Source: a virus. Taken from it: 22,698 nucleotides of DNA. Each line of letters starts with the position of its first letter. Within the stretch, counting starts at the first letter, position 1. Of the stretch, positions 16 to 22,658 are shown in pieces. Location of the stretch: positions 1 to 22,698 of the IMG/VR virus record IMGVR_UViG_3300020201_000279; one strand, 5' to 3'. The position numbers were made by a program, and so were the translations under genes. The notes under the pieces are model-generated. The model was not told the DNA's origin, did not search any database, and was given only the letters and a program-made list of their open reading frames with translations.

Positions 16-291
16 ATGCGCGCACTTCTCGCACTAAGCCTCATCTTGTCGTCGACAACGGCGATGGCGAACCCACCACCCCCAGTCCCTGACGGTCTGG
101 TCAGTCTTCACAGCCTGGACTGCTCCGACGAGGAAACCGGACAGCTCGGCTTCTGCGTCCTGTTCGTGGACGGCACGGGCCAGAACTGGCTCGGCTTCTA
201 CCAAGACGATGAGATTGCGATGATTCGCAAGCTTATGCCTGACGGGTCATATGTCACTACGTGGCGTGCTGACTGGTACGACACACTGTAG
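16..291 (+). CDS. Small secreted protein, unknown function
   Basis: A 91-residue protein. It has an N-terminal signal peptide: Arg2, a hydrophobic core at about residues 3-12, and a likely signal-peptidase cut after AMA near residue 18. A proline run and an acidic mature part follow. Two cysteines (36 and 47) could form one disulphide if the protein is exported. The ATG is supported by AAAGGA 7 nt upstream, a real SD site, unlike nearly every other gene here. The codons are rich in G and C compared with the rest of the window. I do not recognise the family. The differences in base composition and initiation signal suggest a recently acquired gene or a misjoined contig end. The reading frame looks genuine. 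Confidence 0.6.
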   Translation: MRALLALSLILSSTTAMANPPPPVPDGLVSLHSLDCSDEETGQLGFCVLFVDGTGQNWLGFYQDDEIAMIRKLMPDGSYVTTWRADWYDTL

Positions 292-991: not shown

Positions 992-997
992 TATAAT
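992..997 (+). promoter_or_regulatory. Candidate -10 (TATAAT) upstream of the lytic-enzyme gene
   Basis: TATAATTAGGG begins one base after the preceding stop codon. The same TATAATTAGG string occurs on the minus strand in front of the holin-like gene (4673-4682). No clear -35 is seen. Confidence 0.45.
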
Positions 998-1066: not shown

Positions 1067-1399
1067 ATGAAAAAACTAGCAATAGGATTAATCCTTGCGT
1101 TAGGTGTATATGGAGGTATACAACATTTTAGTTCATCAACCACGGTGTATGTACAAGACGTAGCGACCAGTACACCATTACAAATAGAAGAAAAGGAAAA
1201 CCCTTTCGAGATAGCCAAGCGCGAGGCGATTGCCGCCGAGTGGGCTACCCGTGAGGGAGAAGCTAAAGAAAAAGCACAAAAAGAATACGACCGCATGATG
1301 GACGAGCAACGTGTAGCCTCAGACAAAGCTGCCTTAGAGGCACTGCGTAAGAGTCTACTTCCTGAGATTGAAGCACTAGAAAAAAAGCAGGGTTTCTAG
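1067..1399 (+). CDS. Membrane-anchored coiled-coil protein, zero-frame product
   Basis: A 110-residue reading frame. It has a basic start (MKK), a moderately hydrophobic segment at residues 4-22 that could be a signal anchor, then a long charged alpha-helical region rich in Glu, Lys and Ala (about 43-107). It stops at TAG 1397-1399, just after a run of seven A's. An in-frame GTG at 1022, preceded by AAAGGA, could add 15 residues; ATG 1067 is preferred because it puts MKK directly before the anchor. The frame stops just before a lytic-enzyme domain that continues in the -1 frame with no start codon of its own. This ORF may therefore be the short product of a frameshifted gene, or half of a gene broken by an indel. 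Confidence 0.6.
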   Translation: MKKLAIGLILALGVYGGIQHFSSSTTVYVQDVATSTPLQIEEKENPFEIAKREAIAAEWATREGEAKEKAQKEYDRMMDEQRVASDKAALEALRKSLLPEIEALEKKQGF

Positions 1400-1755
1400 T
1401 TAGCCCACGGGCAATAGCCCTCGCTAAAGCTATCCAAAAGCATGAGTCTGGCGGAAACTTTAACGCCCGTGGTGCGTCAGGAGAGGGTGGTAGCATGCAG
1501 TTTATGCGAGCTACCTACGTGGCGTATGCCCAGCAAGTGTACGGTGAGTATCGCGAGATGACACCCGAACGTGAGTGGTATGTAGCCGTAATGATGATTG
1601 ATGGTTGGCTACAGAAAGGTTACACAGCGACTCAAATTGCTGCCACTTGGAATAGTGGAAGTCCTTACAATTGGGAAAACAAACAAGGTATCAACAAACA
1701 AGGCGTTGCTTACGATGTCCCCATGTATGTAAGGAAAGTTCTTGCAAACCTATAG
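1067..1755 (+). CDS. Anchored lytic transglycosylase-like protein, joined by a -1 frameshift
   Basis: Joining 1067-1387 to 1387-1755 gives 229 residues: signal anchor (about 4-22), coiled coil (about 43-107), then an SLT/lysozyme-like domain (about 115-229). The domain shows HESGG with the probable catalytic Glu127 (codon 1444-1446), the downstream GGSMQFM motif typical of transglycosylases, and an AATWNSG segment near the end. In its own frame the domain is open only from 1372. It has no ATG, GTG or TTG before Glu127, and the first Met (1495) lies after the catalytic residue. Either ribosomes slip at A AAA AAG (1381-1387) or the gene is broken. The likely role is peptidoglycan cleavage at the inner membrane or during DNA entry. 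No terminase or tail gene is adjacent. Confidence 0.6.
1381..1387 (+). other. -1 ribosomal slip site A AAA AAG
   Basis: The zero frame reads GAA AAA AAG, so the heptamer has the correct X XXY YYZ phase; it is the same heptamer as in E. coli dnaX. The -1 frame stays open into the transglycosylase domain. A small hairpin GGGC/GCCC (1409-1412/1417-1420) lies downstream, farther away than usual for a stimulator. A homopolymer indel is the alternative. Confidence 0.5.
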
Positions 1756-2881: not shown

Positions 2882-2978
2882 TGGGAGAGGTAGGAATCGA
2901 ACCTACTCATGGTCGCCCTATCTTAAGTAGTAACGCCCGTCGTTTCAAAAACTCGCTCTGCCAGTGAGCTACTCCCCC
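2882..2978 (-). tRNA. Unusual 97-nt tRNA, anticodon uncertain
   Basis: On the minus strand this has a 7-bp acceptor stem GGGGGAG/CTCTCCC (2972-2978/2883-2889), T and A at positions 8-9, a good D arm (GCTC ACTGGCA GAGC), and a textbook T arm (GTAGG TTCGATT CCTAC). Between the D and T arms lie 48 nt instead of the usual 22-38. The best anticodon arm is TACTA CTTAAGA TAGGG (2916-2932), with a TAA (Leu) anticodon, correct T33 and G37, and 4 of 5 pairs. That leaves about 21 extra nt after the D arm. A TTTGAAA loop (TGA, Ser) nearer the D arm has no usable stem. CCA is not encoded. The tRNA starts 2 nt after the stop of the 69-residue gene and is probably cotranscribed with it. Confidence 0.65.
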
Positions 2979-3190: not shown

Positions 3191-3312
3191 ATGTCGTTCA
3201 TCGATTCAGGCATTTCACACTCGTCACTATCCATTTCCGTACCGTAGACATCAAGTCCACTATACGAGTCGTAGATATACTGGTCGGTGCTTGAAATTTC
3301 ATCTTCATCCAT
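3187..3312 (-). CDS. Very acidic 41-residue protein
   Basis: The protein starts MDEDEISSTD and is dominated by Asp, Glu, Ser and Tyr; two Met-rich acidic stretches end it. The open frame extends up to 3483, but that extension crosses a promoter, a pseudoknot-like RNA and a 16-bp hairpin, so it is rejected. ATG 3312 lies 9 nt after the -10 box of a good minus-strand promoter. Such small acidic phage proteins are often DNA mimics or host-protein inhibitors, but nothing here proves that. It is coupled to the next gene by ATGA. Confidence 0.55.
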   Translation of the reverse strand: MDEDEISSTDQYIYDSYSGLDVYGTEMDSDECEMPESMNDI

Positions 3313-3372: not shown

Positions 3373-3427
3373 ACCCGCCTGGTTCGCATGCTTGGTAGCA
3401 GAGGCGTGGCGGGTGTTGATGCTACCA
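3373..3427. ncRNA. Possible RNA pseudoknot
   Basis: Stem A pairs ACCCGCC (3373-3379) with GGCGGGT (3408-3414). Stem B pairs TGGTAGCA (3393-3400) with TGCTACCA (3420-3427). One strand of B lies in the loop of A and the other outside it, the geometry of an H-type pseudoknot, although the two could also be alternative states. Because the stems are complementary, either strand could fold. The coding strand is unknown. Confidence 0.4.
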
Positions 3428-3674: not shown

Positions 3675-4367
3675 TTATTTACCTATGGTTTTTTTATTTA
3701 ATAATCCTCGTAACCAGTCAATCACTTGTAATTGTACCTTACGATATGGTTCCAAATACATCTCCTTACGGCGGGCGTAGGCTGTTTTAAGGTAGGGAGC
3801 CATTAGTTCCATAGCCTTAGCATTGTCTTTCCATTTGATGTACTTCCATTCCGTAGTGTTCTCTTTCTCGGGCCTGCCCCCGTGGACGATGAATTTATCG
3901 TAAGGCATACCAAACAACTTAGTTACATCAAAGCCAGTGTGAGTTAGGATCAGCGCGTCAAGGCTGTGCATCCATTCGTGATACAGCGTCCCTAAAGAAT
4001 TGTTGACATTGCTATTATCGAACCGGACAAGGTGGACATGGTAGGTGCGGTATATATTGCTCCAGTTCGTACCCCAGATGCCTTTAAATATCCAGTTGTC
4101 GCGGTGTACCAGCATAACAACACTGTCTGTCCCCCAGTTACCGTAGTTTACATGCACCTTGTTTGTAAGGGCGGTGACGTAGGTTTGGGCGGGCTTTAAG
4201 TCCCCATCGCTGTCTGCCTCGGTAGGCACTCGACTAAAGTCTTCCTCCTGTACGTAAAAGACCGGGGTCAGCCCAGTGTGCTTGAAAATAAAAGCGTTGA
4301 ATTCTAGCTCTAGTTTCGCTAGTTGTTCGTATGAAATTTTAGTATCTTTTAGTATTAGAAAGCGCAT
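3675..4367 (-). CDS. HExxH zinc metallopeptidase, lysis-cassette candidate
   Basis: A 230-residue protein with the zinc-binding motif HEWMH at 130-134 (His130, Glu131, His134), followed by Asp137, which could complete the site; His152 is another metal-ligand candidate. The N-terminal third (about 1-70) has alternating strands and helices. The C-terminal 40 residues are basic and helical. No signal peptide or membrane helix is seen. It sits between two holin-like membrane genes, the place normally held by an endolysin, and no amidase, CHAP or lysozyme domain is seen in this operon. I infer a peptidase acting on the cell-wall peptide or a host surface protein. A virion-associated or regulatory protease remains possible. 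The start is coupled to the upstream gene by TAACATG. Confidence 0.7.
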   Translation of the reverse strand: MRFLILKDTKISYEQLAKLELEFNAFIFKHTGLTPVFYVQEEDFSRVPTEADSDGDLKPAQTYVTALTNKVHVNYGNWGTDSVVMLVHRDNWIFKGIWGTNWSNIYRTYHVHLVRFDNSNVNNSLGTLYHEWMHSLDALILTHTGFDVTKLFGMPYDKFIVHGGRPEKENTTEWKYIKWKDNAKAMELMAPYLKTAYARRKEMYLEPYRKVQLQVIDWLRGLLNKKTIGK

Positions 4368-4368: not shown

Positions 4369-4656
4369 TTATTTCTTGTTTTTGATAACTGATTCTAGCA
4401 CGAACTTCATCGTCTGCTCTCCAAAGAATCCACCGATACCCGCCATCACAAACAGCATCGGTTCTGGTAGTGCCATTGTTGCACCAAAGACCGCAAAGAT
4501 GTAGCCAGTGAACCCTGCGACTGCACCACTGGCAAGAAAGATACTAATACGGAACGGTGTGCCAGTAGTGTACGCACTGAGGTAACGAGCAAACCCCCCG
4601 TAGACAGCTATCAGTACCACAAACAATTCAATCGGCAGGTTTTTAAGAAATTCCAT
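4369..4656 (-). CDS. Holin-like three-helix membrane protein
   Basis: A 95-residue protein with three predicted membrane helices at about 9-26, 36-58 and 64-80, glycine-rich turns, and a basic C-terminal tail ending KNKK. This is the pattern of class I-type phage holins such as the LydA-like family. It is the first gene of the lysis cassette and has a candidate promoter just upstream, which could time lysis apart from the structural genes. The metallopeptidase follows with only a C between stop and ATG. I am sure of the membrane topology, less sure of the exact holin family. Confidence 0.75.
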   Translation of the reverse strand: MEFLKNLPIELFVVLIAVYGGFARYLSAYTTGTPFRISIFLASGAVAGFTGYIFAVFGATMALPEPMLFVMAGIGGFFGEQTMKFVLESVIKNKK

Positions 4657-5570: not shown

Positions 5571-7364
5571 TTACGCTACTGCTACACATTGCCAGAGTGA
5601 CTTACTAGCAGACCAGATAAAGCCAATCGTAAGAGTAGCTGTGGTTGCTGCGGTTGTACTTGGTAGAGTAACTGTAGTTGACCCAAATGCTACGTTCCAC
5701 GTTAAGGCACGCGCGACTGTAGTTGATGACGCGACGGAAATCTTTAGCATCTGTCCGTCATACTTAGTTCCGCCCGGGGCGTTAAAGAGTAAAGCTCCAG
5801 TTTGAGCCGTGACGATAAAGAAGTCTAAGTTATCTACGTTTAGTGATGTGCCTGTGTCAGTCGTATATGAAGCGGCTGAAAGTACCTTTGGTCTGGCGGA
5901 TAGTACTCGGATGCCCTCTACTGCTATCTCTCCAGCAGCAGTCCTTGCTATGGTAGTATCAGTAGCGTGACCAAGTTCTATTGTCCCTAGACCAAGAGCT
6001 AATGATATTGAGTTCACTAGTCCTGATATTGGTAGACCAGTGGCATTAGTTAGAGTTACTGATGTTGGTGTACCTAAGACTGGAGTTACAAGGGCTTGTG
6101 AGTTAGGTAGTACTACTGTGCCAGTGAAAGTAGGCGAAGCAAGTGGAGCTTTAAGGTCGAGTGCAGATTGTAACCCGCTTGTCTTAGCGATAGAAAGCGC
6201 AGCATCAGCAATGGCTGTAGCGTTCCCAGTGGAAGTTACTACTCCTGTTAGGTTAGCGTTGGTTGTTACGTTTCCTGCCGTTAGACCTGATGCAGTACCT
6301 GTGAGGTTTGTAGCAGTTCCCGATGAGGGAGTACCGAGTGCACCTCCTGAAACAAGGTTGCCTGATGCAGTTCCTGTGACGTTACCTACTAGGTTTGCGG
6401 TGACGGTGGTTGCAGTAATGAGTGTTGTAGCGAGCGTGTCGGTTGTAGTATCAAATGTGAGTGCTGTATCGCCTTCAAGAGTACCATCGCCTGTCCATAC
6501 ACCTACCTGATTGTTGACTGGTGTGCCTACTTTAGCAACGTCTCCACTTCCTGCGGGAGTAGCGAATGAAGGTGCAGAGGAAGCACCGTTAGACTTCAAG
6601 AATGTACCATCAGCTCCTAGTGCTAACTCGGTAACGTCACCTGAGCCGTTTGAGTAGAAGACACGATGTGCTGTTTGGTCTACAAATGAAGTGAGGTTTG
6701 TGTAGCCCCCACCGCCACTACCTGCTCCCCATGTTTTTGTAGTGCTGTTATATGTAAGAACTTGACCGTTTGTTACGCCCTCAATGCTCACATCTAAAAT
6801 TTGGTCTAGCCTACGTGCGATGATAGCAGTAGTGTGTCCACGTTCTTCTGCTTGTCGTTTGTCAAGTTCTTCTCGGAGGTCTTGAATGGAGTCGATTGAC
6901 TGTTTTTCTCCATCGGGGAGGGATTCTAGTGCGTTGCGGATATTCTCTCCACTTATTAGTTCAGAGATTTTAGCAAGTAGTTCGGTATGTTCTTCTAATG
7001 ATTTCTGTATCTCTGTAGCGTCAAACTCGTCTGGCATTATAGGCATTGACTCCTCAAGACGTTTTACCTCTTGTGCTACAAGTCTTCGGAGGGTAGCTGT
7101 TTCAGTAGTTGAGTTTTCTTTAGCGTCCTTTATAAGACTTTGAATGTCTCTATGGGCTTGAGCAATTTCAGCCTTTAGAGATGTAATAGAGCGCATACTC
7201 GTCTCACTGGTGTCCTTGATTTGGCTTAGGAAAAGCTTTTCTGAGTGCTTGATAATAACCATCACAGCTTCCATTGCCTCTATAAGCTCATTAGGCTGTA
7301 CTGCACCACTGTCAAAAGCAGAGAGGAGTGTTTCAAGGCGTTTTTGGTTTTTATCGTTGAGCAT
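5571..7364 (-). CDS. Tail fibre protein
   Basis: A 597-residue protein. Residues about 1-205 are helical and charged with heptad character (trimeric coiled coil). The hinge NGQVLTYNSTTKTWGAGSGGGGY (about 207-229) is the usual start of a phage fibre shaft. The middle (about 320-450) is Thr/Gly/Ala-rich with repeated GTASGL, NLTG and LGTP elements, and SPTFTGTVVLP is a typical fibre segment. The last 90 residues form a beta-rich cap. Similar DNA repeats show in the gene (CCTGATGCAGT at 6286 and 6360). The ATG lies 6 nt after a TATAAT box, so the gene may have its own leaderless mRNA besides the operon transcript. The likely role is host recognition. Confidence 0.85.
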   Translation of the reverse strand: MLNDKNQKRLETLLSAFDSGAVQPNELIEAMEAVMVIIKHSEKLFLSQIKDTSETSMRSITSLKAEIAQAHRDIQSLIKDAKENSTTETATLRRLVAQEVKRLEESMPIMPDEFDATEIQKSLEEHTELLAKISELISGENIRNALESLPDGEKQSIDSIQDLREELDKRQAEERGHTTAIIARRLDQILDVSIEGVTNGQVLTYNSTTKTWGAGSGGGGYTNLTSFVDQTAHRVFYSNGSGDVTELALGADGTFLKSNGASSAPSFATPAGSGDVAKVGTPVNNQVGVWTGDGTLEGDTALTFDTTTDTLATTLITATTVTANLVGNVTGTASGNLVSGGALGTPSSGTATNLTGTASGLTAGNVTTNANLTGVVTSTGNATAIADAALSIAKTSGLQSALDLKAPLASPTFTGTVVLPNSQALVTPVLGTPTSVTLTNATGLPISGLVNSISLALGLGTIELGHATDTTIARTAAGEIAVEGIRVLSARPKVLSAASYTTDTGTSLNVDNLDFFIVTAQTGALLFNAPGGTKYDGQMLKISVASSTTVARALTWNVAFGSTTVTLPSTTAATTATLTIGFIWSASKSLWQCVAVA

Positions 7365-7370
7365 ATTTTA

Positions 7371-7376
7371 ATTATA
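7371..7376 (-). promoter_or_regulatory. -10 TATAAT for the tail fibre, leaderless
   Basis: Minus-strand TATAAT ends 6 nt before ATG 7364. The -35 is weak. It is back to back with the plus-strand promoter at 7397-7424. Confidence 0.5.
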
Positions 7377-7396
7377 ACGTATTGTGGATAAATTGG

Positions 7397-7424
7397 TTGA
7401 CTTTTGGTGGTTTAGGCGTATAAC
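7397..7424 (+). promoter_or_regulatory. Promoter TTGACT-16-TATAAC
   Basis: This is the best sigma70-type promoter in the window: TTGACT (7397-7402), a 16-nt spacer, and TATAAC (7419-7424). ATG 7433 follows after 8 nt. Confidence 0.7.
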
Positions 7425-7432
7425 GGTTGTAT

Positions 7433-7537
7433 ATGGGACACATAATTTTCCTTATCTGTGCAATATGGCTTGCTATACTGTTTCCTTGGTTGTGGCTTGT
7501 GTATATTGCACTGTTTGCCGTTAGTGCTAGTCGATAG
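7433..7537 (+). CDS. 34-residue membrane peptide on the opposite strand
   Basis: The peptide starts MGHI and is hydrophobic from about residue 4 to 30 (Ile, Leu, Phe, Trp, Ala), with four Trp and a basic end SASR. That is one membrane helix. It is the only convincing plus-strand gene inside the 19-kb minus-strand late block, and its last 11 bases overlap the 3' end of the 582-residue internal-protein gene. A strong promoter ends 8 nt before the ATG, so the mRNA should be leaderless. Possible roles are an accessory lysis or superinfection-exclusion peptide, or a small membrane toxin. No family is recognised. Confidence 0.6.
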   Translation: MGHIIFLICAIWLAILFPWLWLVYIALFAVSASR

Positions 7538-9275
7538 CTTCTAACAAAGCCCTAAGTGCCTTTCTCTGATCTTCTGTGTCTGCCTTTCCAGCCTCCATTA
7601 TTGCACCTGCAATATCTGACAATCCAGCTCGTATACCACCTTGGAACCCTGCCTTTGGTACCTTCTCAGGATATAACGCTCTTATTTCCTCCGCAAATGC
7701 AGCTACTTCTTTAGGTGATGCGCCTTCGTAGCCGAGTTGTCGTGAGATGGTGTCCATTTCGTCTGCAATCGCTTCGTAGGCTGGTGAGCTTTGAGCTTCA
7801 CCAAAGATGCGCCGTAAGTTTACCTTTGCAAACTCAGACGGGTCAGTGTTTTTAGTTATCTCAAAGTTTGGTGTTTTAAAGATACTGTTTTCAATATCTT
7901 CTAGGAGCGTTGCCACGTTTCTATACTGTGAGTTTAGCTTTTTAATCTCAGGTGACAGTACGTCTAACTCGTTTGAGTAAACGTCTCTGAAAGCTCTAAA
8001 CAAGTCTGTTGTTTGTCCATCTACGGTGGTAAAGATTACATCTTGAACAGCATCAGATCGTGACTCTCTTTGGATAGCCGAAAACAACTGATCTTTCTCT
8101 CGGATTTGTAGTGGGGATAATGAATCTCCACCTTCTGTGGCTTTCTTGTATAAGTCAGTTACTACTGTTCTTTGTTTTTCTGTCAGTTTTGATTTACTAA
8201 AATCGAGTTTAACTCCGGTGTTAGTAAGTCTTTTACTTATGCCTATATCCTCCAAGACACTATCAAGTTGGGAGTAAGCTCCTGTCATGTTTATATTTTC
8301 TATCTTGCCGAGTTTGGCCGTTTCTACATTCATTGCTTCACCGATACTCTTGCGCTGTGCCTCGATGGTATCGTATTGCTGGGACGCCCTATTCCCAGCA
8401 ATAATCGCTGGGTTCTGTTTTTGTCCTAGCGTAGTTTTAGGTGTGTCGGCAATATCTAGTACTTCTTTAAATGCTTGTTTAGTTACAGGGTTGGCATTTT
8501 TGACAGGGTCAATTAGTGGTTCAGGTAAACCTGACTTAATAGCTTTCTGTACTAGTGGTGTTGATGTTTTTATGCGTTCTGCCCTGACACCTGCTTCTCG
8601 TACATTTTCCGATACCTTTCCTATAAAACGGGGTACTCTGTCGCCTAGCTCTGATGCAGTTTGTTTAATACCAGACAGTGTTTGTGATTCAGGTAACGCA
8701 TTTGATATAGTTTGCCCAGCATCTCTGACAACTGGTGTAGCTTTGTTCTTTAACGCACCAATACCTGCCGCTGCCCCTTTGATGGCTACTGGAGCTACAC
8801 CACCAATAACAGTTCCTAATCCAGGAGTTGCTACTTCTTTTGCTGACTTCTTATTAACTAGGTCTTGACCAACATCGTAGGCATAGCCAATACCAGCTCC
8901 AACTGCCGCTTGTCCGAGTACAGATGTACCTCCAGTTAGTGCAAAGCCAGCAGGGATAGTTGCTGTTTGAAGGGCAGCTCCAACAACCTGACCACGTGTA
9001 GGTTTTTCAATAAATTCTTGTGTAACTTCTTTTGATGCGTCTGTTCCAATACCTTGCCTTGCAAGTAAACGCCCAAAAACATCTGTAGCACCCCCTAAAC
9101 CTAAAGTGTCAGTAATTCTGTTTGAAAGAGGTTTTTTAGGAGCTTCTGCTTGAGATGCCTGATTAGGCTGTGACTGTGTCTCTCTATGTCTTGATAGAGC
9201 CATCATTATTTCATTTGGATTTTTGCCATTAGTCTTTCCAAACTCTACAATTTGCCTTTCTGTTGCTGATAACAT
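7527..9275 (-). CDS. Internal/ejection protein with membrane-active segment
   Basis: A 582-residue protein. The N-terminus (1-50) is polar and Gln-rich. Residues about 95-180 are Gly/Ala/Val-rich with several hydrophobic stretches (TIPAGFALTGGTSVLGQAAVGAGIGYA), which could insert into a membrane. The remainder (about 230-582) is helical with coiled-coil character and ends with KALRALLEAID. This composition is typical of podovirus internal proteins injected with the DNA. The gene follows the other large internal protein with a TAAATATG junction. No enzymatic motif is seen. An ejection role is inferred from composition and position. Confidence 0.6.
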   Translation of the reverse strand: MLSATERQIVEFGKTNGKNPNEIMMALSRHRETQSQPNQASQAEAPKKPLSNRITDTLGLGGATDVFGRLLARQGIGTDASKEVTQEFIEKPTRGQVVGAALQTATIPAGFALTGGTSVLGQAAVGAGIGYAYDVGQDLVNKKSAKEVATPGLGTVIGGVAPVAIKGAAAGIGALKNKATPVVRDAGQTISNALPESQTLSGIKQTASELGDRVPRFIGKVSENVREAGVRAERIKTSTPLVQKAIKSGLPEPLIDPVKNANPVTKQAFKEVLDIADTPKTTLGQKQNPAIIAGNRASQQYDTIEAQRKSIGEAMNVETAKLGKIENINMTGAYSQLDSVLEDIGISKRLTNTGVKLDFSKSKLTEKQRTVVTDLYKKATEGGDSLSPLQIREKDQLFSAIQRESRSDAVQDVIFTTVDGQTTDLFRAFRDVYSNELDVLSPEIKKLNSQYRNVATLLEDIENSIFKTPNFEITKNTDPSEFAKVNLRRIFGEAQSSPAYEAIADEMDTISRQLGYEGASPKEVAAFAEEIRALYPEKVPKAGFQGGIRAGLSDIAGAIMEAGKADTEDQRKALRALLEAID

Positions 9276-9277
9276 AT

Positions 9278-11005
9278 TTATTGTTGATACAAGTTAGTAA
9301 TATAGTGAGAGCCTGTTGATGTTTGTACTGAGTTCGGAAGAGCAATATCTACACCCATACCATTTATTTCGTCTAAGTCCTCTGGCGCGAACGCAGACCA
9401 TGTAATTGAGTTCGATTGTGCACCAACACCTAACCTAGCCTCGGCAGTTGCTTTTTGTCTTTCTGTCTGAGTAATAAAGGTGTCTAATTGAGTTACTAAC
9501 TTGCTCGCTCTACGTCCTGTGATGTTTGTGAGTGGGTTAAAAGTACTAGTCGGTTCTTCTCCTAAGATTTGTTCCATTAAAGTCAATACCCCAACATCAA
9601 GTGTGCCAAGTGTAGCGGCTTTTTTATACTCTGCGGTCATCAAAGCTCGTAAAGAACTTATCTTACCTAGTTTTTCAGGACTACCACCAATAGTATTAGT
9701 GAAGCCACTTGTTTTAATAATACCCCTATACTCATTAGCAAGGTTTATTAGTGAATCTTGTGAACTTACTGCGTCTTCTAGCTGTCGTCTTACTGTTTTA
9801 TCCACTTCAATTTTTCCGCTAGTACCAGCTCCAAATGTTTTAATTACCTCTCCTGTTTGTGAGTTGACTAGCACCTTACTTCCATCCGCTTGTTCGATAA
9901 CTTGTGTATCAAGTTTTGATGCTGACGGGCGGTTTGCTCTGTTTGCTGAGGCTAACTGTGCTTGCTGTACCTGTCGTCCAAGTACATCCCCGTTGTATAC
10001 TCCTGCTGCAAGTATCGCCTCTTGTTTTGTACTGGCGTTTTTTACCGCGTTATAGATTGCTGCAGAACCTTGCTGTGAGAGGACACTGCCAAGGAGTGCG
10101 TTTTTTGTGTTGATGAAGTCTTTATTTTCTTGGTAGGTTCGTTCGTTCTTTGCTTTTAGTTCGTCAATTTTCTTGAACTCAATCCCTACAGCAAAGTCTC
10201 TGACGCTGGTGAGTAGGTCTTTCTGTCTGTTGTATTTGTTTGTAGCGTCATTCATTAGGATAGACCCCCATGTGTTTATGTGGGCTTCTGCCAGAGCAAC
10301 GTTACCTTGAGCATGAGCGAGTTGTGCTTGTACAGGGAGCGCTTGAATAGCCGCCTCTCTATTGATGCGTGCTTGTTCACCACCAATAAATCCTGTTGTT
10401 TGACCACGACCTTGTCCTTCGAGTGCGAGTTGTGATGCATCACGATTATTTTGAATAGTATTTATCTGCGAAGCAAAGTCGTTCTCCTGCTGACGTAAGT
10501 TCTTTATGCCTGTTTCTTTTTCTAATTTGCGCTGTATATCAGCACCCGATGGTGTGGCAAGGTTATATATTTCATCATTCTTTTCCTTGAAAGCGGCTAA
10601 TACAGAACTAAATGTTTCCTTTTCGGGTTCTGGTGCTGGTGTTTGTGCAAGTACTCCACCTGATTGTGTGAGGCTCGATTCTCCTCCAGTAAAACCAATG
10701 TTGTTTGCAGCGAAATCAGGGACTTGGGATACCTTTTCTGTAGGGACAGGTGTAGTAGTAACAGGCTTGATTGAATTTGAAGTTATAATGTTTCCTGTTG
10801 CATCTCTTTGTGAGAGTGGCGCACCTTTCGAAGTAGTGCCTTTCCCCTCAAAGGAATCATTGTAACCGGGGGCATCTTTTACAGAACGATAGTAGGTAGT
10901 TACTCCTTTTCGGTTGGTTGTAGAGTACTTAGCATTGTTATTACTAAGACTTTTCGCCTGTCTTACTTTCTTATTTCCGCCACGTCTTAATGAGATTTTC
11001 GCCAT
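9278..11005 (-). CDS. Internal/ejection-type structural protein, coiled coil
   Basis: A 575-residue protein. The first 20 residues are very basic (RRGGNKKVRQAK) and could bind DNA. Residues about 60-135 are low-complexity Ser/Thr/Pro/Gly. Residues about 135-350 are long, Gln/Ala-rich helices with coiled-coil spacing (QARINREAAIQALPVQAQLAHAQ region). A helical region to about 520 contains SLRALMTAEYKKAATLG. The C-terminus is beta/loop. No signal peptide and no tape-measure-like membrane pattern are seen. With the adjacent 582-residue protein it forms the likely pair of internal proteins. Its ATG lies 11 nt after an extended -10 box. Confidence 0.6.
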   Translation of the reverse strand: MAKISLRRGGNKKVRQAKSLSNNNAKYSTTNRKGVTTYYRSVKDAPGYNDSFEGKGTTSKGAPLSQRDATGNIITSNSIKPVTTTPVPTEKVSQVPDFAANNIGFTGGESSLTQSGGVLAQTPAPEPEKETFSSVLAAFKEKNDEIYNLATPSGADIQRKLEKETGIKNLRQQENDFASQINTIQNNRDASQLALEGQGRGQTTGFIGGEQARINREAAIQALPVQAQLAHAQGNVALAEAHINTWGSILMNDATNKYNRQKDLLTSVRDFAVGIEFKKIDELKAKNERTYQENKDFINTKNALLGSVLSQQGSAAIYNAVKNASTKQEAILAAGVYNGDVLGRQVQQAQLASANRANRPSASKLDTQVIEQADGSKVLVNSQTGEVIKTFGAGTSGKIEVDKTVRRQLEDAVSSQDSLINLANEYRGIIKTSGFTNTIGGSPEKLGKISSLRALMTAEYKKAATLGTLDVGVLTLMEQILGEEPTSTFNPLTNITGRRASKLVTQLDTFITQTERQKATAEARLGVGAQSNSITWSAFAPEDLDEINGMGVDIALPNSVQTSTGSHYITNLYQQ

Positions 11006-11016
11006 GTTATTTAATA

Positions 11017-11025
11017 ATTATATCA
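11017..11025 (-). promoter_or_regulatory. Extended -10 promoter TGATATAAT
   Basis: Consensus TGnTATAAT on the minus strand in the 26-nt gap before the 575-residue protein gene. It ends 11 nt before the ATG. No -35 is seen. Confidence 0.5.
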
Positions 11026-11031
11026 GTTATT

Positions 11032-11292
11032 TTATGTTTGAGTACCAACTAATGTCCAATTATTTGCAGATGTACAGACGTACAGTTTCCCGTTGGTTGC
11101 ATTTGCATATACATCCCCAATAGAAGCTACAGTTGGTGCTGTTGCAAAGACAGGGACTCGGAGTCTTGTGTTAAAACGTGAGTGCTTGTTAAAGTCTTGA
11201 GACGCAGTAAAGTTGTTGGTGTAATACTCAGAGTTCAACGCCTCTATTTCTGAGCGTAGTTGGTCTATTTGTTTTTGAATGTCTTGTGGCAT
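11032..11292 (-). CDS. Short fibre-like virion protein
   Basis: An 86-residue protein with an N-terminal coiled coil (about 4-25, QKQIDQLRSEIEALNSEYY) and a C-terminal beta motif, GDVYANATNGKLYVCTSANNWTLVG. Such a motif, in which a displayed value ends in NWTLVG, is common at the ends of phage fibre and whisker proteins. ATG 11292 is chosen over 11307 because it gives the recurrent TAATATG junction with the preceding stop. It may form a small trimeric spike or collar part. Confidence 0.6.
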   Translation of the reverse strand: MPQDIQKQIDQLRSEIEALNSEYYTNNFTASQDFNKHSRFNTRLRVPVFATAPTVASIGDVYANATNGKLYVCTSANNWTLVGTQT

Positions 11293-11293
11293 A

Positions 11294-12784
11294 TTATGGA
11301 ACGTCATTTATACGAGCCTTCGCTTTAAATCCAGTAATTTCAAGACCACCAGTGCTGAGGAGTTGGAATTCATACTCCTTACCTGACGCAAATGCGTCCC
11401 CTGTAGCCTCAATATTAAGGAAGGTGCGTGATAGTTCGCCTGTAGTTGAGAATGTGCCGATAGTAGTCCATGCAGTAGCACCATCAACTCGGTATTTTGC
11501 GGTGAGACTTTCACCTGATGCGAGTTTTCTAAAATACACACAGAGTGATTGAAGTGTTTTGTCAGCATCTTGGTCACCAAAGTTAAATACCTGTGACTCA
11601 TAGACACTTGAAAATGTGTAGACAGCTACATCGTTTGTCTTATCAATAGAGCCGTCACCTGAATGTGATATGAAAAAGTAGTTTGCGGCTGAACCGATAG
11701 CTTGAATGCCACTTGTATTTATATTCTCATCAATGATATCAAGTGTGAGTGCAAATGGGTACAGTGAGTTCTTACGCCCGAATGACCAAACACCCTCGTT
11801 GTATGTAGTTCCCGCAGTGTTAGTCATTATCTTGCCCGCCCAGAATAGACGGTTGTTCTTTACCGCTTTTTGAAGTGGAATTGACTTGTTTGTGAGAGCT
11901 TGTGTAAATACCTCTTTGATTACTTGTGGTGTACCACCTGAATACATTTGTATAATCATTGAACCACGCCCTGCACCTGTAGCGTTATTAAGGTAGCGGT
12001 CTGTTACCCCTACCAAGTAGCCTTCAATCGTTTCGAGAATGCGTAGTTCACCCTCTCCCCAGTCAATCTTCTCCTGTAAGTCTGTTGATGTGCCGTCCCA
12101 TAGAAATACCTTTGATTGTCCGTTAAATGTTGAAATAGGTGCAATAGCAATAGCTATATATTTCCCCCACGCTGTCATTGAGGTAATTTTTACGTTGGTT
12201 GGCAAGACAAGAAAACCATCGGAGAATGTAGTTGCGTCTGTTGCCCTCCAGATCCTGTTATTGTATGCAAGATATAAATAGTCGTTAAATACAAGACCGT
12301 TTGCTACTGAGGTAATGGTAGCTCCCGTAGTGCTTGCTGAGTTTGCAATGGTGTTTGTAGCTATTGTCCACTTCCATATTTGGTTTGTACCCTGAAAGCC
12401 CCACAAGATGTCCTTGTATTCTAGAAAACAGCCGTTCTTTACTGCTCCGTTGCCTTCTGATGTTGCAGGGAGTGACCAGTTGCCTGTAGTTGCATCGGCT
12501 TTTTGTACAATTTTAGTTAATCCTGCCCCTGTTTGCCCTAGTCCAAAGAGTTTTGCCGATGCTGAGTGATACAGGTAGTCTTGGACAAAGTATTGCTTCA
12601 TTCCAGTAGCGGTAGCACCATCATTAGTATCAGCTTCTAGGCTTCTGTATGGGATTAGTCTAGTTGGGTCGGTAAACGTATCAAAATGCTTCGTAATTTG
12701 GTATTTACTAGCGTTGTCTTCACGTGGGGAGTCACTAGTACCCCCTGAAAAGGTGTTTATTTTGATTTCTACTAGTTTAGACAT
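11294..12784 (-). CDS. Beta-propeller-like tail protein (nozzle/hub candidate)
   Basis: A 496-residue, almost entirely beta-stranded protein. It has recurring blade-like segments with aromatic and Trp residues (KDILWGFQGTNQIWKWT about 123-139, LYLAYNNRIWRATD about 170-183, KVFLWDGTS about 225-233, NNRLFWAGKI about 308-317), which suggest a propeller of several blades. A C-terminal beta sandwich (about 395-496) resembles other tail proteins. Podovirus tail nozzles (P22 gp10, T7 gp12) are propellers of this kind, so a DNA-retaining nozzle role is my inference. The start overlaps the previous stop by one base (TAATG). Confidence 0.6.
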   Translation of the reverse strand: MSKLVEIKINTFSGGTSDSPREDNASKYQITKHFDTFTDPTRLIPYRSLEADTNDGATATGMKQYFVQDYLYHSASAKLFGLGQTGAGLTKIVQKADATTGNWSLPATSEGNGAVKNGCFLEYKDILWGFQGTNQIWKWTIATNTIANSASTTGATITSVANGLVFNDYLYLAYNNRIWRATDATTFSDGFLVLPTNVKITSMTAWGKYIAIAIAPISTFNGQSKVFLWDGTSTDLQEKIDWGEGELRILETIEGYLVGVTDRYLNNATGAGRGSMIIQMYSGGTPQVIKEVFTQALTNKSIPLQKAVKNNRLFWAGKIMTNTAGTTYNEGVWSFGRKNSLYPFALTLDIIDENINTSGIQAIGSAANYFFISHSGDGSIDKTNDVAVYTFSSVYESQVFNFGDQDADKTLQSLCVYFRKLASGESLTAKYRVDGATAWTTIGTFSTTGELSRTFLNIEATGDAFASGKEYEFQLLSTGGLEITGFKAKARINDVP

Positions 12785-13914
12785 TATGAGTATGTAATTA
12801 CTACAGCAATACCAGCGCCTCCATTACCTCCAACACCACCGTTATGTGCTATTGAGCCTGACGCTCCTCCTCCACCGCCACCACCTCCCATTACTCCATT
12901 TCCGCCAGCTCCTCCAGCCGCGTTGTCCCCTGTATCACCTCCGCCTCCCCCTCCTCCTGTACCACCAATTCCATCCACCAAAGAAAATGAGTTACCACTA
13001 GCACCGACACCACTGTTATTAGCACCCGCAACACCTCCAGCCAAAACCGCAACATTAGTGCGAGCACCACCAGCCGAGCCAGCCGAGCCTACGTTACTAG
13101 TAGATACCCCACCACCAGAACCACCGCCTGTTGGCGCAAATGTTGTTGTCGCTACCCCAGCGTTACCAGGAGAGTTTACGACACTAGAACCGCCGTTAGT
13201 CCCGTTGGCAATATTACCGATACCCGCACCCGTGCCGCCTGTACCTGGAGAAGCACCAGAACCCGCTGCTCCTCCCGTAGCGATTAAAAGTGCTCCAAAA
13301 GAAACATCACCACCAGCTACACCGTTTGAGCCGTTCCCGTCGCTCCCTGTTCTTCCTGCTCCACCAGCAGAGGCGGCTGGAACAGTTACAGTAACCGTTG
13401 CACCAACAGAACTAGCGTTAAACTTATAGTTTGACAAGCCTCCTCCTTGTCCCCCTGCACCACCAGCTCCGTCTGTTGTACCAATAGAGCCTCCACCTGC
13501 ACCACCACCACCGCCAATTAAAAGTACTTCAACAAATTTAGCTCCGGCTGGTTTTGTATATGTACCGTTGGCTGTAAATACTTGGACATCAGTACTTGGT
13601 AAGTTATCAGGGGAAACAGCTAGGATGGCACCAGTAGCACCTGTTCTAGTGCGTGTAGCTACCTCAGCCACTGTAGCAATTTCTACAATACCTCTAGTAG
13701 TCTCACTAGCGTTCACGTTACCGCCTGTGTCCACATAAGCCTTAACTGCCTTCTGTGATGGGTAGAGTGTGTCTGAATTGGCAGTAAACGCTGTGTCAGT
13801 TGACTTGTTTGTTACTTCTTCCTTGTCTGCATTTAAATTACTAAAGTTAGTATTTATGACAGTGCGAGACGATGTAATTGTATCCGCACCAAGTAGTGTA
13901 GAAATTGTACTCAT
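12784..13914 (-). CDS. Glycine-rich tail fibre/spike
   Basis: A 376-residue protein. Residues 1-115 are a fibre attachment region (SQKAVKAYVDTGGNV, ETTRGIVEIATVAEVATRT). TFTANGTYTKPAG-like text at about 114-127 marks the start of a Gly-rich domain. Residues about 135-375 have long Gly runs with Ala/Ser/Asn, the polyglycine sandwich type found in some phage fibre tips. Proline-rich frames on the plus strand here are shadows of the Gly codons. It overlaps the previous gene by ATGA and the next by TAATG. The probable role is receptor binding. Confidence 0.8.
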   Translation of the reverse strand: MSTISTLLGADTITSSRTVINTNFSNLNADKEEVTNKSTDTAFTANSDTLYPSQKAVKAYVDTGGNVNASETTRGIVEIATVAEVATRTRTGATGAILAVSPDNLPSTDVQVFTANGTYTKPAGAKFVEVLLIGGGGGAGGGSIGTTDGAGGAGGQGGGLSNYKFNASSVGATVTVTVPAASAGGAGRTGSDGNGSNGVAGGDVSFGALLIATGGAAGSGASPGTGGTGAGIGNIANGTNGGSSVVNSPGNAGVATTTFAPTGGGSGGGVSTSNVGSAGSAGGARTNVAVLAGGVAGANNSGVGASGNSFSLVDGIGGTGGGGGGGDTGDNAAGGAGGNGVMGGGGGGGGASGSIAHNGGVGGNGGAGIAVVITYS

Positions 13915-14102
13915 ACAGGTTTTGCGCTATTAGTAATACTTGTTGTTGGTTTGCTTGGATTGATAAACAGGGAGCCTGTAGCGTCCCATGTTCTTGGTTC
14001 ACTAGTCCACGTTGTAGTAATCGTAGACCACAATTCAGCGAAAGACACCTTGTCGGTGTTCATGAGTGTGGTTGTCGGTTTTGATACGTTTGTAAGTGCC
14101 AT
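13911..14102 (-). CDS. Small SKPTT-repeat virion protein
   Basis: A 63-residue protein with repeats near both ends (NVSKPTTTLMNTDKV and NPSKPTTSITNSAKP), flanking a Trp-containing central segment WSTITTTWTSEPRTWD. Short proteins with such NxSKPTT repeats often lie next to head-tail genes in phages. They may be beta-hairpin minor structural proteins. Junctions are TGATATG upstream and ATGA downstream. Confidence 0.6.
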   Translation of the reverse strand: MALTNVSKPTTTLMNTDKVSFAELWSTITTTWTSEPRTWDATGSLFINPSKPTTSITNSAKPV

Positions 14103-14103
14103 A

Positions 14104-14829
14104 TCAGATAGAGTTTATTGCAGGGGTAGTAAGTACAGGGATTTCATCTGTATTTCTGTTTCTAAAGTATGTTTCCATTTTGATACGTTCTTTCTCCATT
14201 TCTACTGAAACAGCTTGTAGGTTTGCAGAGCCTATTCCTGCTAGAAGCGCATCATATACAGAAGCGATGATGAAGCCTCTGTGGAGTAGTGGTGGTACAC
14301 CAGGAGACTTTGTGGTGTCTGATACTGTAAAGTATGAGCCTGTTCGTTGGAAGTAGAACTTAAGTCCTGCGGTGACGCTAGAAACAGGCTTGGGGGTCAG
14401 TCTGATGATGTTGTCGGCTATCTTGTCATACTCGGTTGGTAGTCCTGCTGTAGTAAGGAGCGTATCTTCTGCGAGGTCATTATCTGCCATGTCTCGTACG
14501 TCTAGTTTTCGGTAGAGTCCATTCGAGTCAAGAATATCTATGCGGGTTAAGTTAAGAATTGCATTACCCTGTTGGTCTGTGAGGAATGAGTAGTCTGATT
14601 GGTCTGCCACTAGGTTAGTTGTGCCGATAGGAAGCTTCGTGTGGTTTGTGTCATCCCATTGGAAGCGTCTGTCTGCTCCGATAGCGTAACCAGTAACAGT
14701 ATCAAGCCAGTTGTTGTATGAATTGACTACACGAACAGTAGGGTACTGTGTTGCATCTACACGCAACATGTTTCGTACTTGTTGGAGTCCTCCTGTGAGG
14801 TTTACTGTGTCACTAAATGATATGCTCAT
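14104..14829 (-). CDS. Probable head-tail adaptor
   Basis: A 241-residue protein just downstream of the capsid genes. It has an N-terminal helical part (about 1-60), a beta domain (about 70-170) with IDILDSNGLYRKLDVRD and LRLTPKP-like strands, and a helical C-terminal part with PLLHRGFIIASVYDALLAG (about 179-197) and MEKERIKMETYFRNRN. The position, size and helix-beta-helix layout are like those of head completion/adaptor proteins in short-tailed phages. No enzymatic motif is seen. I am moderately sure it is virion-structural; the exact adaptor class is inference. Confidence 0.55.
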   Translation of the reverse strand: MSISFSDTVNLTGGLQQVRNMLRVDATQYPTVRVVNSYNNWLDTVTGYAIGADRRFQWDDTNHTKLPIGTTNLVADQSDYSFLTDQQGNAILNLTRIDILDSNGLYRKLDVRDMADNDLAEDTLLTTAGLPTEYDKIADNIIRLTPKPVSSVTAGLKFYFQRTGSYFTVSDTTKSPGVPPLLHRGFIIASVYDALLAGIGSANLQAVSVEMEKERIKMETYFRNRNTDEIPVLTTPAINSI

Positions 14830-14850
14830 ATTTTATTTAATTGCTATATC

Positions 14851-14877
14851 CATCTCCCCAAATAAATTGAAGAGATG
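14851..14877. other. Intergenic hairpin between decoration and adaptor genes
   Basis: A 9-bp stem (two G-T wobbles on the minus strand) pairs 14851-14859 with 14869-14877, with a 9-nt loop. It has no T tract, so it may slow RNase or polymerase rather than terminate. Confidence 0.45.
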
Positions 14878-14886
14878 AGATAACCT

Positions 14887-15357
14887 TTAAGAGGTTGCGA
14901 ACGGAGTAACTACTACTCCTGTTGCTAGGGTTGTACCTGTTACTTGCCACTTTGTGCTTGTCACCTTTGTCAGAATAATTCTGTCTCCGATAAGACCACC
15001 TGATGTAGTCCCATTGAGAGTGAAAGAAATATTGCTTGTACCTACGAGTGACTTCCACGATGCTACAGCATCACTAGTGTCAGTGTCAGTATTGATGATA
15101 TTTCCTACCATCAATTCTGTTGCTGCTCCTGTGATTACTTTTAGCCCGACTGAGGTTACTGTAGTTCCAATAACAAACTCAAAGAATGTTCCGTTATCAC
15201 AAGCTGCTGGAAGTGTTGTGGTAAATCCTGCTGCTGCGTTAAAGACAACTACTGCTCCTGACTCGTCTGCCCGTAGTGTACGAGCAGCGGCTAGGGTAAT
15301 AATAGGTCTTCGTGACGGAGTGTTGAGTGTTGGGATAGTTCCGTTATTGTTAGCCAT
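14887..15357 (-). CDS. Capsid decoration/fibre-type structural protein
   Basis: A 156-residue beta-rich protein. The ITLAAARTLRADESGAVVVF opening (about 20-39), the TTTLPAACDNGTFFEFVIGT strands (about 46-65) and the closing GDRIILTKVTSTKWQVTGT (about 123-141) are typical of a small beta-sandwich domain that recurs in phage head and tail decoration proteins. It directly follows the major capsid gene, where decoration proteins are usual. The ATG comes after a 40-nt A/T-rich gap without SD. Confidence 0.65.
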   Translation of the reverse strand: MANNNGTIPTLNTPSRRPIITLAAARTLRADESGAVVVFNAAAGFTTTLPAACDNGTFFEFVIGTTVTSVGLKVITGAATELMVGNIINTDTDTSDAVASWKSLVGTSNISFTLNGTTSGGLIGDRIILTKVTSTKWQVTGTTLATGVVVTPFATS

Positions 15358-15397
15358 GTTTGTTACTAATTAGCTGATAAAGTATCTTCTAATTAAG

Positions 15398-16246
15398 TTA
15401 CGCCATAAGCATATCAAAGAGGATCGGTGTGACTTTGTTCCATGCCTTGAATTTAAGGTCAACGCGTGATTCAAGTCCTACTCCTGAGATTTGAGCTGAG
15501 GATACTACTGGATTGATGATAGTCTTCATCTTTCCGTATGTAGACTTTACGATTCCTACTTGGAATGTCTTCTTTACTCCTCCAAATACGTGTCCTGCTA
15601 CGTTCTTAGAAGTTGAGTAGTGTTCTACACCAAGGTATTTGAAGCCTTGCTTGATACCGTTCTTGAGAACGTCATCTGCGGTGTTGAATCCTTCGCTTGA
15701 AGCCAAGAGTTCTACGAGTTCGTAGTCAGCTTCTCGCCACTGGATGAAAGCACCGTTTCGGTTCATCATCTCAGCACCTCCAGCTTCTCGAATTTCTCGC
15801 TTCATTGCAGCTATAATGTTCTTGACGTTAGAGATAGAAACAGTGATGTTTCCAGCACCGCCTCCGATTGCAGCGTTGTCAAAGTTTGTCCACTGTGCGT
15901 GTTCTGCAAGCATCATAGTCTCAACCTTTTCGTTGAGCATTGTTCCCATGTTGTCTGCAATCTCCATAAAGTCGGAGAATGTCTTTTGTGCAAGGTCTGC
16001 ATCGTCAATATGCTGTGCAGAATAAACGTAATCTGAGATAGTTACTGTTTCGTCAAGCGTTGCTACTGCTGTTGATGTGTAGCCTGTTCCACGTGTTCCT
16101 GTACCGACTGTTGAATCAGTAAGGTATGGGTTTCGTAGGATACCTGAGTTTGTGTACTTTACGTTAAGGATTTCTTTCCACACCATTGGTGCATCTAGTC
16201 GTTCTTGTAGTCGAGTCTCGTACTCTATTGTTGGGATAATCGCCAT
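15398..16246 (-). CDS. Major capsid protein
   Basis: A 282-residue protein with HK97-fold-like features. These are an N-terminal arm (1-40), a segment with TSTAVATLDETVTISDYVYSAQHIDD (about 55-80), a helical spine (about 90-120, MGTMLNEKVETMML), a glycine-rich loop, MKREIREAGG with a helix (about 145-158), and a C-terminal strand domain ending KVTPILFDMLMA. The gene follows the scaffold gene, as expected. Length is typical for a phage without a separate head protease or a fused delta domain; no protease is seen nearby. The start is ATG after TAATCAATTATC, with no SD. Confidence 0.85.
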   Translation of the reverse strand: MAIIPTIEYETRLQERLDAPMVWKEILNVKYTNSGILRNPYLTDSTVGTGTRGTGYTSTAVATLDETVTISDYVYSAQHIDDADLAQKTFSDFMEIADNMGTMLNEKVETMMLAEHAQWTNFDNAAIGGGAGNITVSISNVKNIIAAMKREIREAGGAEMMNRNGAFIQWREADYELVELLASSEGFNTADDVLKNGIKQGFKYLGVEHYSTSKNVAGHVFGGVKKTFQVGIVKSTYGKMKTIINPVVSSAQISGVGLESRVDLKFKAWNKVTPILFDMLMA

Positions 16247-16287
16247 GATAATTGATTAGTTATTAAGTAATCAGATGGCGTTGGGGT

Positions 16288-16806
16288 CTAGGAGTTGTAG
16301 AATTTGCCTTGGCTATTTTCTTGCTTTAGCTTTGCGTTCACCACTTCTCGGCGCATATTTGCTGGTACGTCCTCTATGGGTTTTGCTAACCAGTAGTCTA
16401 CGCTTCCTGTAGCTACTCCACCTGAACGTTTGCCTGTTGGGACAGCGTCTTTAGTTTTTGTAGTTTCTCGGTGTTTCTCAAGCTTTGCTTTAAAATAGTC
16501 ATTTTCCAATAAGGAATCTATGTCTGTTTCACCTGATGCTTTCATCTCGGCTTTTACAAAGTCAAATTCTGTTGATGCAATACCTGATGCTTTCAAGTAT
16601 CCCTTTACGTCTAGTCCAAAGTCGTCTGATTTTTTTGGTTCTTTTTGGGGTTTGTTCTTGTTTCGTTCGAGAATAGCTTTGTTCTTTAAAGCTTCCGCTT
16701 TCCAATATTCAACTCCTTGTTCTTCCTCTTGTTCTTGTTCGACTTCTACTTCTTCTGACATTATTTCAAGGTTGTCTTCCTGCTCCTCAATTTCATCGTT
16801 TATCAT
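16288..16806 (-). CDS. Scaffolding protein
   Basis: A 172-residue protein directly before the major capsid gene. The N-terminus (1-35) is extremely acidic (long Glu/Gln runs), then basic (about 40-60), with a helical middle and a basic C-terminal region (about 145-172, ANMRREVVNAKLKQENS). This charge pattern, helical content and position fit a phage scaffold that is not kept in the mature virion. It has its own promoter. The antisense frame at 16520-16819 is a shadow. Confidence 0.8.
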   Translation of the reverse strand: MINDEIEEQEDNLEIMSEEVEVEQEQEEEQGVEYWKAEALKNKAILERNKNKPQKEPKKSDDFGLDVKGYLKASGIASTEFDFVKAEMKASGETDIDSLLENDYFKAKLEKHRETTKTKDAVPTGKRSGGVATGSVDYWLAKPIEDVPANMRREVVNAKLKQENSQGKFYNS

Positions 16807-16861
16807 AGTGATGATCTAGTTAATGCGCTGTTTTGCAAAGTTGCGCTTCTTGTTACTTGTA

Positions 16862-16890
16862 ATTATACCAACGTTCTGTGCTGTACGCAA
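16862..16890 (-). promoter_or_regulatory. Internal promoter TTGCGT-17-TATAAT for scaffold and capsid
   Basis: Minus strand: -35 TTGCGT (16890-16885), a 17-nt spacer ending in TGG (extended -10), and TATAAT (16867-16862). The leader would be about 50 nt with no SD. It would raise capsid and scaffold output above that of the terminase and portal genes. Confidence 0.65.
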
Positions 16891-16912
16891 CTACACTACT
16901 TCATTAAATATA

Positions 16913-18376: not shown

Positions 18377-18377
18377 A

Positions 18378-18701
18378 TTATTCTGCGATATTAACGTTTG
18401 TCTTTATAAGTTCTGGTTTTTCACTCTTGATGCTTTCTAGCTTGTCGAATCCGTTCTTGAGGATGTTCACTCCTGACCACATACCTCTAATGTGCGCACC
18501 TAGTTGTTCGTCTGGCACTGGATTGTCCATTGCTAACGATACTAGGTTAAACGCTCCATTGATTAGCGGGTTGTGTTCCTTGCCTTCTACAACTCCATGA
18601 GAGTAAAGGCTTGCTAAGAGCACACACCGTACTGCTTCGTACATCTCTCTGTCTGCACAGAAGGCTTCTATCTTTACTTTTTGTAAGTCTGTTAGTTCCA
18701 T
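18378..18701 (-). CDS. Small helical head-region protein
   Basis: A 107-residue, mainly helical, acidic protein without signal peptide. Helices at about 3-40 contain AVRCVLLASLYSHG; a second set at about 45-90 contains INGAFNLVSLAMDN and GAHIRGMWSGVNILKNG. It sits directly after the portal gene with TAAATATG. No family is recognised. It may be a small connector, packaging or head-associated protein. Confidence 0.6.
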   Translation of the reverse strand: MELTDLQKVKIEAFCADREMYEAVRCVLLASLYSHGVVEGKEHNPLINGAFNLVSLAMDNPVPDEQLGAHIRGMWSGVNILKNGFDKLESIKSEKPELIKTNVNIAE

Positions 18702-18703
18702 AT

Positions 18704-20440: not shown

Positions 20441-20442
20441 GT

Positions 20443-20700
20443 TTAGTTAAGAAGTAGATTATTTATAAATATCTGTCGGAACATAGCATCGTTAAAGAGT
20501 TTCCGTGATTGTATGAGATTAAGTTTTCGTTCTGATGTTGCTTTTCCTTTCGTAGCGGTGACGTATGTTTCTATATATACCATTTCAGGTTTTAAGTCTT
20601 GTATGGCTTCGTCTAAATCATTTGTGGTGCGCGTAAAAATCTCACCGTTTATCTTCATCTCTAATTTGTATGCAGGAGTTTTTTTAGTAGCGGTTGCCAT
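20443..20700 (-). CDS. Small protein between terminase and portal genes
   Basis: An 85-residue protein. A Thr/Lys-rich start (MATATKKTP) precedes a beta motif, YKLEMKINGEIFTRTTNDLDEAIQDL (about 11-36), and an ending FNDAMFRQIFINNLLLN. The longer frame from 20730 overlaps the terminase end and is rejected in favour of ATG 20700, which lies 9 nt after TGATACAAT, without overlap. I do not recognise the family. It might be a small DNA-packaging or portal accessory. The gap to the portal start is 2 nt. Confidence 0.65.
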   Translation of the reverse strand: MATATKKTPAYKLEMKINGEIFTRTTNDLDEAIQDLKPEMVYIETYVTATKGKATSERKLNLIQSRKLFNDAMFRQIFINNLLLN

Positions 20701-20708
20701 GTCAGATA

Positions 20709-20717
20709 ATTGTATCA
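20709..20717 (-). promoter_or_regulatory. Extended -10 promoter TGATACAAT
   Basis: The minus-strand 9-mer is identical to 379-387 and 506-514. It ends 8 nt before ATG 20700. The stop of the large-terminase gene is next to it. Confidence 0.5.
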
Positions 20718-20719
20718 CA

Positions 20720-22541: not shown

Positions 22542-22556
22542 TTTTATTTAAATTTA

Positions 22557-22617: not shown

Positions 22618-22658
22618 GTAAGAGGAGTGTATCAATATCAAACAAATATGACGTAGAC
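22589..22658. repeat. 8-bp inverted repeat GTCTACGT ... ACGTAGAC
   Basis: The arms 22589-22596 and 22651-22658 flank the promoter and the 5' part of the tRNA-like element. It could be an operator pair, or chance. Confidence 0.35.
22626..22634 (-). promoter_or_regulatory. Candidate late promoter, extended -10 TGATACACT
   Basis: This minus-strand box ends 8 nt before the tRNA-like element and is one base different from the recurrent TGATACAAT. It is the only candidate seen upstream of the terminase genes, so it may start the main late transcript. The remaining bases 22659-22698 show nothing further. Confidence 0.45.

Follow-up and report, generated by a model that had tools for sequence, protein, structure and literature searches.

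A phage gene that very probably yields both a membrane-anchored stem protein and, by recoding, an anchored lytic transglycosylase

Analysis of a 22,698-base virus record (the whole of this stretch of DNA is hereafter termed the window) indicates that one of its genes very probably undergoes programmed recoding, so that one gene would give an anchor-stem protein as its main product and an anchor-stem-enzyme protein in smaller amount, a reading that is drawn from sequence comparison. Under the proposed mechanism a single mRNA would give rise to two proteins. Most ribosomes would halt at the TAG codon at 1397 and release a protein of 110 residues that consists of the membrane anchor and the charged helical stem, while a minority would slip into the -1 frame at the heptamer A_AAA_AAG and go on to make a 229-residue anchored lytic transglycosylase. 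Because the anchor and the stem are shared, both products would be expected to occupy the membrane together, the enzyme being the less abundant of the two. Relatives of this gene would arrive at the same pair of products, some through -1 slippage at U_UUU and others through readthrough of an in-frame UGA codon.

Gene layout and the enzyme domain

The zero-frame ORF starts at GTG 1022 or ATG 1067 and terminates with the codons GAA AAA AAG CAG GGT TTC TAG, in which GAA AAA AAG occupies 1379-1387 and the TAG stop 1397-1399. The -1 frame, which encodes an SLT domain, stays open between 1372 and a stop at 1753-1755 and overlaps the zero frame by 28 nt (1372-1399). The features of the gene and of its surroundings are as follows.

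992..997, + strand: TATAAT, probable -10 element of the gene's own promoter (sequence; similar elements lie about 75-200 nt upstream of homologous genes)
1067..1129, + strand: signal anchor MKKLAIGLILALGVYGGIQHF (translation; a hydrophobic N-terminal segment is common to all homologous genes)
1130..1396, + strand: charged helical stem of the short product (translation; long helix in the model of the L014 homologue)
1381..1387, + strand: slippery heptamer A_AAA_AAG in -1 phase (sequence; codon-shuffle test)
1397..1399, + strand: TAG, zero-frame stop (sequence; translation)
1397..1432, + strand: possible stimulatory stem-loop, 9 nt behind the heptamer (marginal)
1387..1755, + strand: SLT lytic transglycosylase in the -1 frame, catalytic Glu codon at 1444-1446 (PF01464; structure model with pLDDT 87.8)
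3675..4367, - strand: convergent HExxH-bearing protein, conserved neighbour of the putatively recoded gene (43% identical to L016 4649-5329)
4369..4656, - strand: holin (PF16083, E 7e-11; phrog_785 holin)

The original prediction had placed the heptamer in perfect -1 phase at a frame break and had proposed that slippage would give a single protein of 229 residues. Our check of ORFs and translations confirmed the break, its coordinates and the phase of the heptamer, and the fused anchor-stem-enzyme product is indeed 229 aa long. It had also held that the enzyme frame has no start ahead of its catalytic Glu, which is correct in that the first ATG of this frame, at 1495, lies past the Glu codon. 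Upstream of that codon there is no ATG, GTG or TTG, and only ATA or ATC are available. As for transcription, the TATAAT at 992..997 was not among the two-hexamer promoters listed by a consensus promoter scan. A small secreted protein with a signal peptide is encoded upstream of the gene (window 16-291, +), and similar small secreted proteins occur near the corresponding gene in L083 (8437-8748, -) and L085 (4753-5142, -).

The domain encoded by the -1 frame matches the SLT family profile PF01464 above its cut-off (E 1.3e-6), and its AlphaFold model matches the Slt, MltE, MltC and MltF lytic transglycosylases by Foldseek and further structure comparison. The best structural match is Cj0843 (Z 12.8, 2.5 A over 111 residues), with other Slt structures matching as well. 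Residue Glu25 of the model, the catalytic residue, is invariant and resides in helix 1 (residues 12-26); judged from the model, initiation at 1495 would thus give a fragment without the catalytic residue. The domain therefore combines the family profile, the catalytic Glu and the lysozyme-like fold of SLT-family lytic transglycosylases. Direct homologue searches with the window enzyme returned only SLT domains of virion proteins, or no matches. The SLT type found in the window also forms the N-terminus of a large protein, probably of the virion, in L002 (3986-4390), L081 (3977-4360) and L082 (3977-4378). The window's likely counterpart of this large protein (7527-9275, -) is without an SLT domain, and it seems that the domain has moved between entry and lysis-type contexts.

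Relatives with a broken anchor-stem-enzyme layout

Six further viral loci display the window's layout of an anchor, a stem, a break and an enzyme of the SLT or SLT_3 type that lacks a good start. The loci with a stem thus number seven, namely the window, G001 (L013/L014), L016, L086, L083, L084 and L085. No near DNA match across the window was found among named phages, and G001 (L003, L013) is about 93-97% identical to most of window 5932-22679. At the DNA level the left arm of the window bears almost no relation to that of G001, and at the corresponding place G001 has the same gene layout with a different sequence. An anchor and charged stem (L013 9729-10034) are followed by an in-frame TGA and then, in the same frame, by an SLT_3 lysozyme-like domain (PF18896, E 1e-6) with no good start ahead of its catalytic motif. 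L015 is a second record carrying this gene. In L016 a UGA is present at the same place and the enzyme is 76% identical to that of G001, while the major capsid protein of this phage is only 23% identical to that of the window over the aligned part. Among the few stretches over which the left arms of the window and G001 can be aligned is the one that surrounds an abiF RNA-like hairpin (Rfam RF03085); the hairpin scores 42.5 bits in L013 (10941-10976, -), above the gathering score, and 28.5 bits in the window (3373-3413, -), below it.

The HExxH-bearing neighbour is common to the window and L016 (43% identity). A scan of viral contigs with this neighbour recovered four further records that were not selected for a break. 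All four contain, beside the HExxH gene, an anchor-stem ORF and directly behind it, on the other side of a break, an SLT or SLT_3 frame. L083, L084 and L085 have a TAA stop with the enzyme in the -1 frame, the break being conserved at the same boundary in all three, while L086 has an in-frame UGA. L083 and L085, being closely similar, are counted as a single lineage, so the three -1 U_UUU loci represent two lineages.

Relatives that lack the stem are uninterrupted, as seen in L072 (9560-10036), lyZ1 of MW202577 and G017; the enzymes of G015 and G017 are both without a stem and in an unbroken frame. The frame break consequently tracks the stem (7/7 loci with a stem versus 0/3 without), although these numbers are small. 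The original prediction had raised the prospect that relatives might all encode one uninterrupted frame, which did not materialize since every stem-bearing locus is broken and the unbroken ones are stemless. Its idea that the gene would produce an anchor alone together with an anchored enzyme is well supported by this comparative evidence. Two peculiarities among the relatives are also noted. The frame of the SLT_3 enzyme at L067 1330-1450 (record G017) has no ATG, GTG or TTG before its signal peptide, making a non-standard start or a further recoding event possible. Additionally, the L085 enzyme ORF has a second frame break at an A-run (about 3240-3250, -) that is absent from its close relative L083.

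Conservation of the enzyme begins directly behind the break, where the window enzyme is 47% identical to that of L084 from [VI]SPRA on. In the enzyme frame of L083 and L084, identical codon positions number 46/64, 50/63 and 22/64, and codon differences between the L014 and L016 enzyme frames comprise 42 synonymous versus 24 nonsynonymous changes. These codon-level comparisons together show purifying selection on the enzyme frame of the relatives in two separate lineages.

Recoding sites and alternative explanations

The slippery motif of the window lies in phase, ahead of the stop of the zero frame and where the -1 frame is already open, as expected for -1 frameshifting. When codons of the ORF were shuffled, the overlap contained the exact heptamer in phase in 0.8% of shuffles; the figure was 3.4% for any of 14 slip-prone heptamers and 4.6% for any X_XXY_YYZ. 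The heptamer by itself is therefore only moderately surprising, and the weight of the argument comes from relatives. A search for homologues with the same frame break and heptamer, as had been proposed, gave a divided result in that the break recurs in relatives but the window's own A_AAA_AAG is present in none of those found. There is no clear SD-like element upstream of the window heptamer. The downstream hairpin at 1397-1432 (-11.1 kcal/mol) is marginal, with 39 of 1000 synonymous shuffles folding as low; hairpins at the corresponding place are significant in L016 (p about 0.01), not significant in L013 (p 0.1-0.2) and weak in L084. A single stimulatory RNA structure for all loci was consequently rejected, as only the L016 hairpin is significant.

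Collectively the loci point to three modes of recoding, comprising -1 slippage at A_AAA_AAG in the window, -1 slippage at U_UUU in L083, L084 and L085, and an in-frame UGA in G001, L016 and L086. The original reading of -1 slippage is thus well supported by comparison, with the amendment that relatives appear to use U_UUU slippage and UGA readthrough as well. The 19-base block ACGTCTTTTCAATAAGCCC, which holds U_UUU in zero phase, is identical in L083 and L084 and is the longest identical run of their genes; its flanks are 43% (90 nt upstream) and 59% (90 nt downstream) identical. In E. coli, A_AAG and U_UU[U,C] constitute the three most shift-prone tetramers, and these predominate among the tetramers of IS1 and IS3 elements (PMC4066793).

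All three UGA loci read TAT TGA AG, and their stem ORFs are only 24-41% identical. The shared position of the UGA in three genes that have diverged, together with a conserved enzyme frame, is what readthrough would predict. In E. coli a UGA is leaky when the next base is A. A different genetic code was rejected, as UGA serves as a stop in these phages, with long genes lacking internal UGA and some ending in TGA. ARAGORN found no tRNA that could act as a phage suppressor of UGA, and the Rfam tRNA in L013 was rejected for this role since its anticodon loop is read as Lys. The window itself contains, at 2882-2978 (-), a tRNA-like element (Rfam tRNA, 41.6 bits) that is missed by ARAGORN and that has a long insertion in its anticodon or variable region.

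Several other explanations for the broken frame were weighed against programmed recoding. Homopolymers are error-prone and the L085 enzyme has its extra break at an A-run, so a sequencing or assembly indel in the 7-A run could in principle have split a gene that is really single-frame. When genes of the window were compared with those of L003 and L013, however, each non-triplet gap was offset by a nearby gap or located at a gene end, the structural genes were free of uncompensated frameshifts, and two T7 runs in coding sequence were intact. A lone indel at 1380-1386 is for these reasons not the default expectation. An indel also leaves unexplained the UGA codons and the conserved blocks of homologues, and with six other loci broken at the same domain boundary by different means, this alternative, which the original prediction had itself put forward, is very unlikely. 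Decay of the gene, with the enzyme surviving as a pseudogene, would account for the broken frame and for the second break in L085 but is extremely unlikely given that enzyme frames are open and under purifying selection in two separate lineages, with the catalytic Glu and the fold retained.

Slippage by RNA polymerase on the A7 run is known in bacteria (PMC5009743) and the window does have seven A's, yet such an event would not explain the U4 site and UGA cases of the homologues, which makes it quite improbable. Termination followed by reinitiation, or use of a non-standard start, would make the enzyme a separate cytoplasmic protein, and potential starts do exist, such as TTG at +27 in L016 and L086 (CTG in L014), ATG at +20 in L083 and L085, and an ATA that overlaps the TAA in L083-L085. 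There is nonetheless no start common to the loci, as the window offers nothing but ATA or ATC ahead of the catalytic Glu and L084 only a GTG at +35 inside helix 1. Additionally, in the stretch from the UGA to the Leu codon at +27, L014 and L016 agree at 6, 8 and 2 of 9 first, second and third codon positions, a codon-like pattern, and an SD-like sequence precedes only 4/24 gene starts in the window. We consequently give reinitiation a small chance of being correct. The scarcity of SD-like sequences at window gene starts also suggests a host that makes little use of Shine-Dalgarno initiation.

The two products, comparable systems and implications

The L014 homologue is predicted to contain a long charged helix in a model of low overall confidence; the enzyme part of this AlphaFold model of the UGA fusion has low confidence and the model was used for the helical stem only. 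The earlier description of the stem as a coiled coil was not borne out, as 3.5-residue heptad periodicity in the window stem does not rise above shuffles (p 0.28) and is nominally above them in only one of six stems, that of L084 (p 0.02). A coiled coil was accordingly rejected. The short product gave weak Rz-like profile matches (E 0.002-0.009), but identity as an Rz spanin was also rejected since shuffled stems score equally and no homology was shown; no o-spanin partner was identified. Its N-terminal membrane helix and charged helical domain do resemble Rz-type i-spanins in broad layout, and possible roles for the short product are those of a scaffold, a competitor or a spanin-like protein.

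We infer that recoding occurs, as well as its rate and the co-assembly of the products, and we likewise infer a role in host lysis rather than in entry. Lysis is the likely stage because the holin and HExxH genes are nearby. The ratio of the two products is probably what selection maintains, since relatives swap mechanism yet keep the two-product layout, an argument made by analogy with tail chaperones and Gag-Pol. The Gly/Ala-rich sequence of the anchor only suggests SAR-type membrane release upon depolarisation.

In tail assembly chaperones of the lambda gpG/gpGT type, low-level recoding likewise sets the ratio of a short to an extended protein, and different phages use -1, -2 or +1 shifts (PMC5009743); in contrast, the product here is an anchored wall enzyme and readthrough appears to be used too. 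The A_AAA_AAG heptamer is shared with -1 frameshifting in dnaX and the IS3 family, where the products differ and where, unlike here, a clear upstream SD-like stimulator exists. A_AAA_AAG and A_AAA_AAA make up 72% of the IS1- and IS3-family heptamers, and U_UU[U,C] tetramers also serve there (PMC4066793). SAR endolysins of the phi21 R21 type also have an N-terminal membrane anchor on a muralytic enzyme (PMC6139136), but these are made directly, whereas here a long stem intervenes and the enzyme would need recoding. Frameshifting has been raised as a possibility for LysA of mycobacteriophage Ms6 (PMC3111421). A Lactococcus phage lysin is cited in a listing of frameshift-containing genes (Shearman 1994, reference 35 of PMC10885494). 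Within an open-access library, no account turned up of an anchored transglycosylase for which alternative recoding modes are used.

The pairing of a structural protein with a minor enzyme-bearing fusion is also reminiscent of retroviral Gag-Pol, which uses frameshifting or readthrough depending on the member. There is no shared ancestry with Gag-Pol, and co-assembly is only presumed here. We tentatively entertain, as somewhat short of probable, a Gag-Pol-like phage system in which the anchored stem protein and the stem-transglycosylase would co-assemble at a fixed ratio, with recoding mode and enzyme family (SLT or SLT_3) exchangeable, and so meter digestion of the wall.

In these genomes, standard gene callers would annotate an anchor of unknown function, with the enzyme truncated or overlooked. 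Among tailed phages, the most familiar cases of recoding are tail chaperones and extensions of the capsid or tail. Were a wall hydrolase to depend on recoding in distant phages, with three interchangeable mechanisms preserving it, this would constitute a new use of recoding, and would suggest that selection acts on how much anchored muralytic enzyme is made relative to the anchor.
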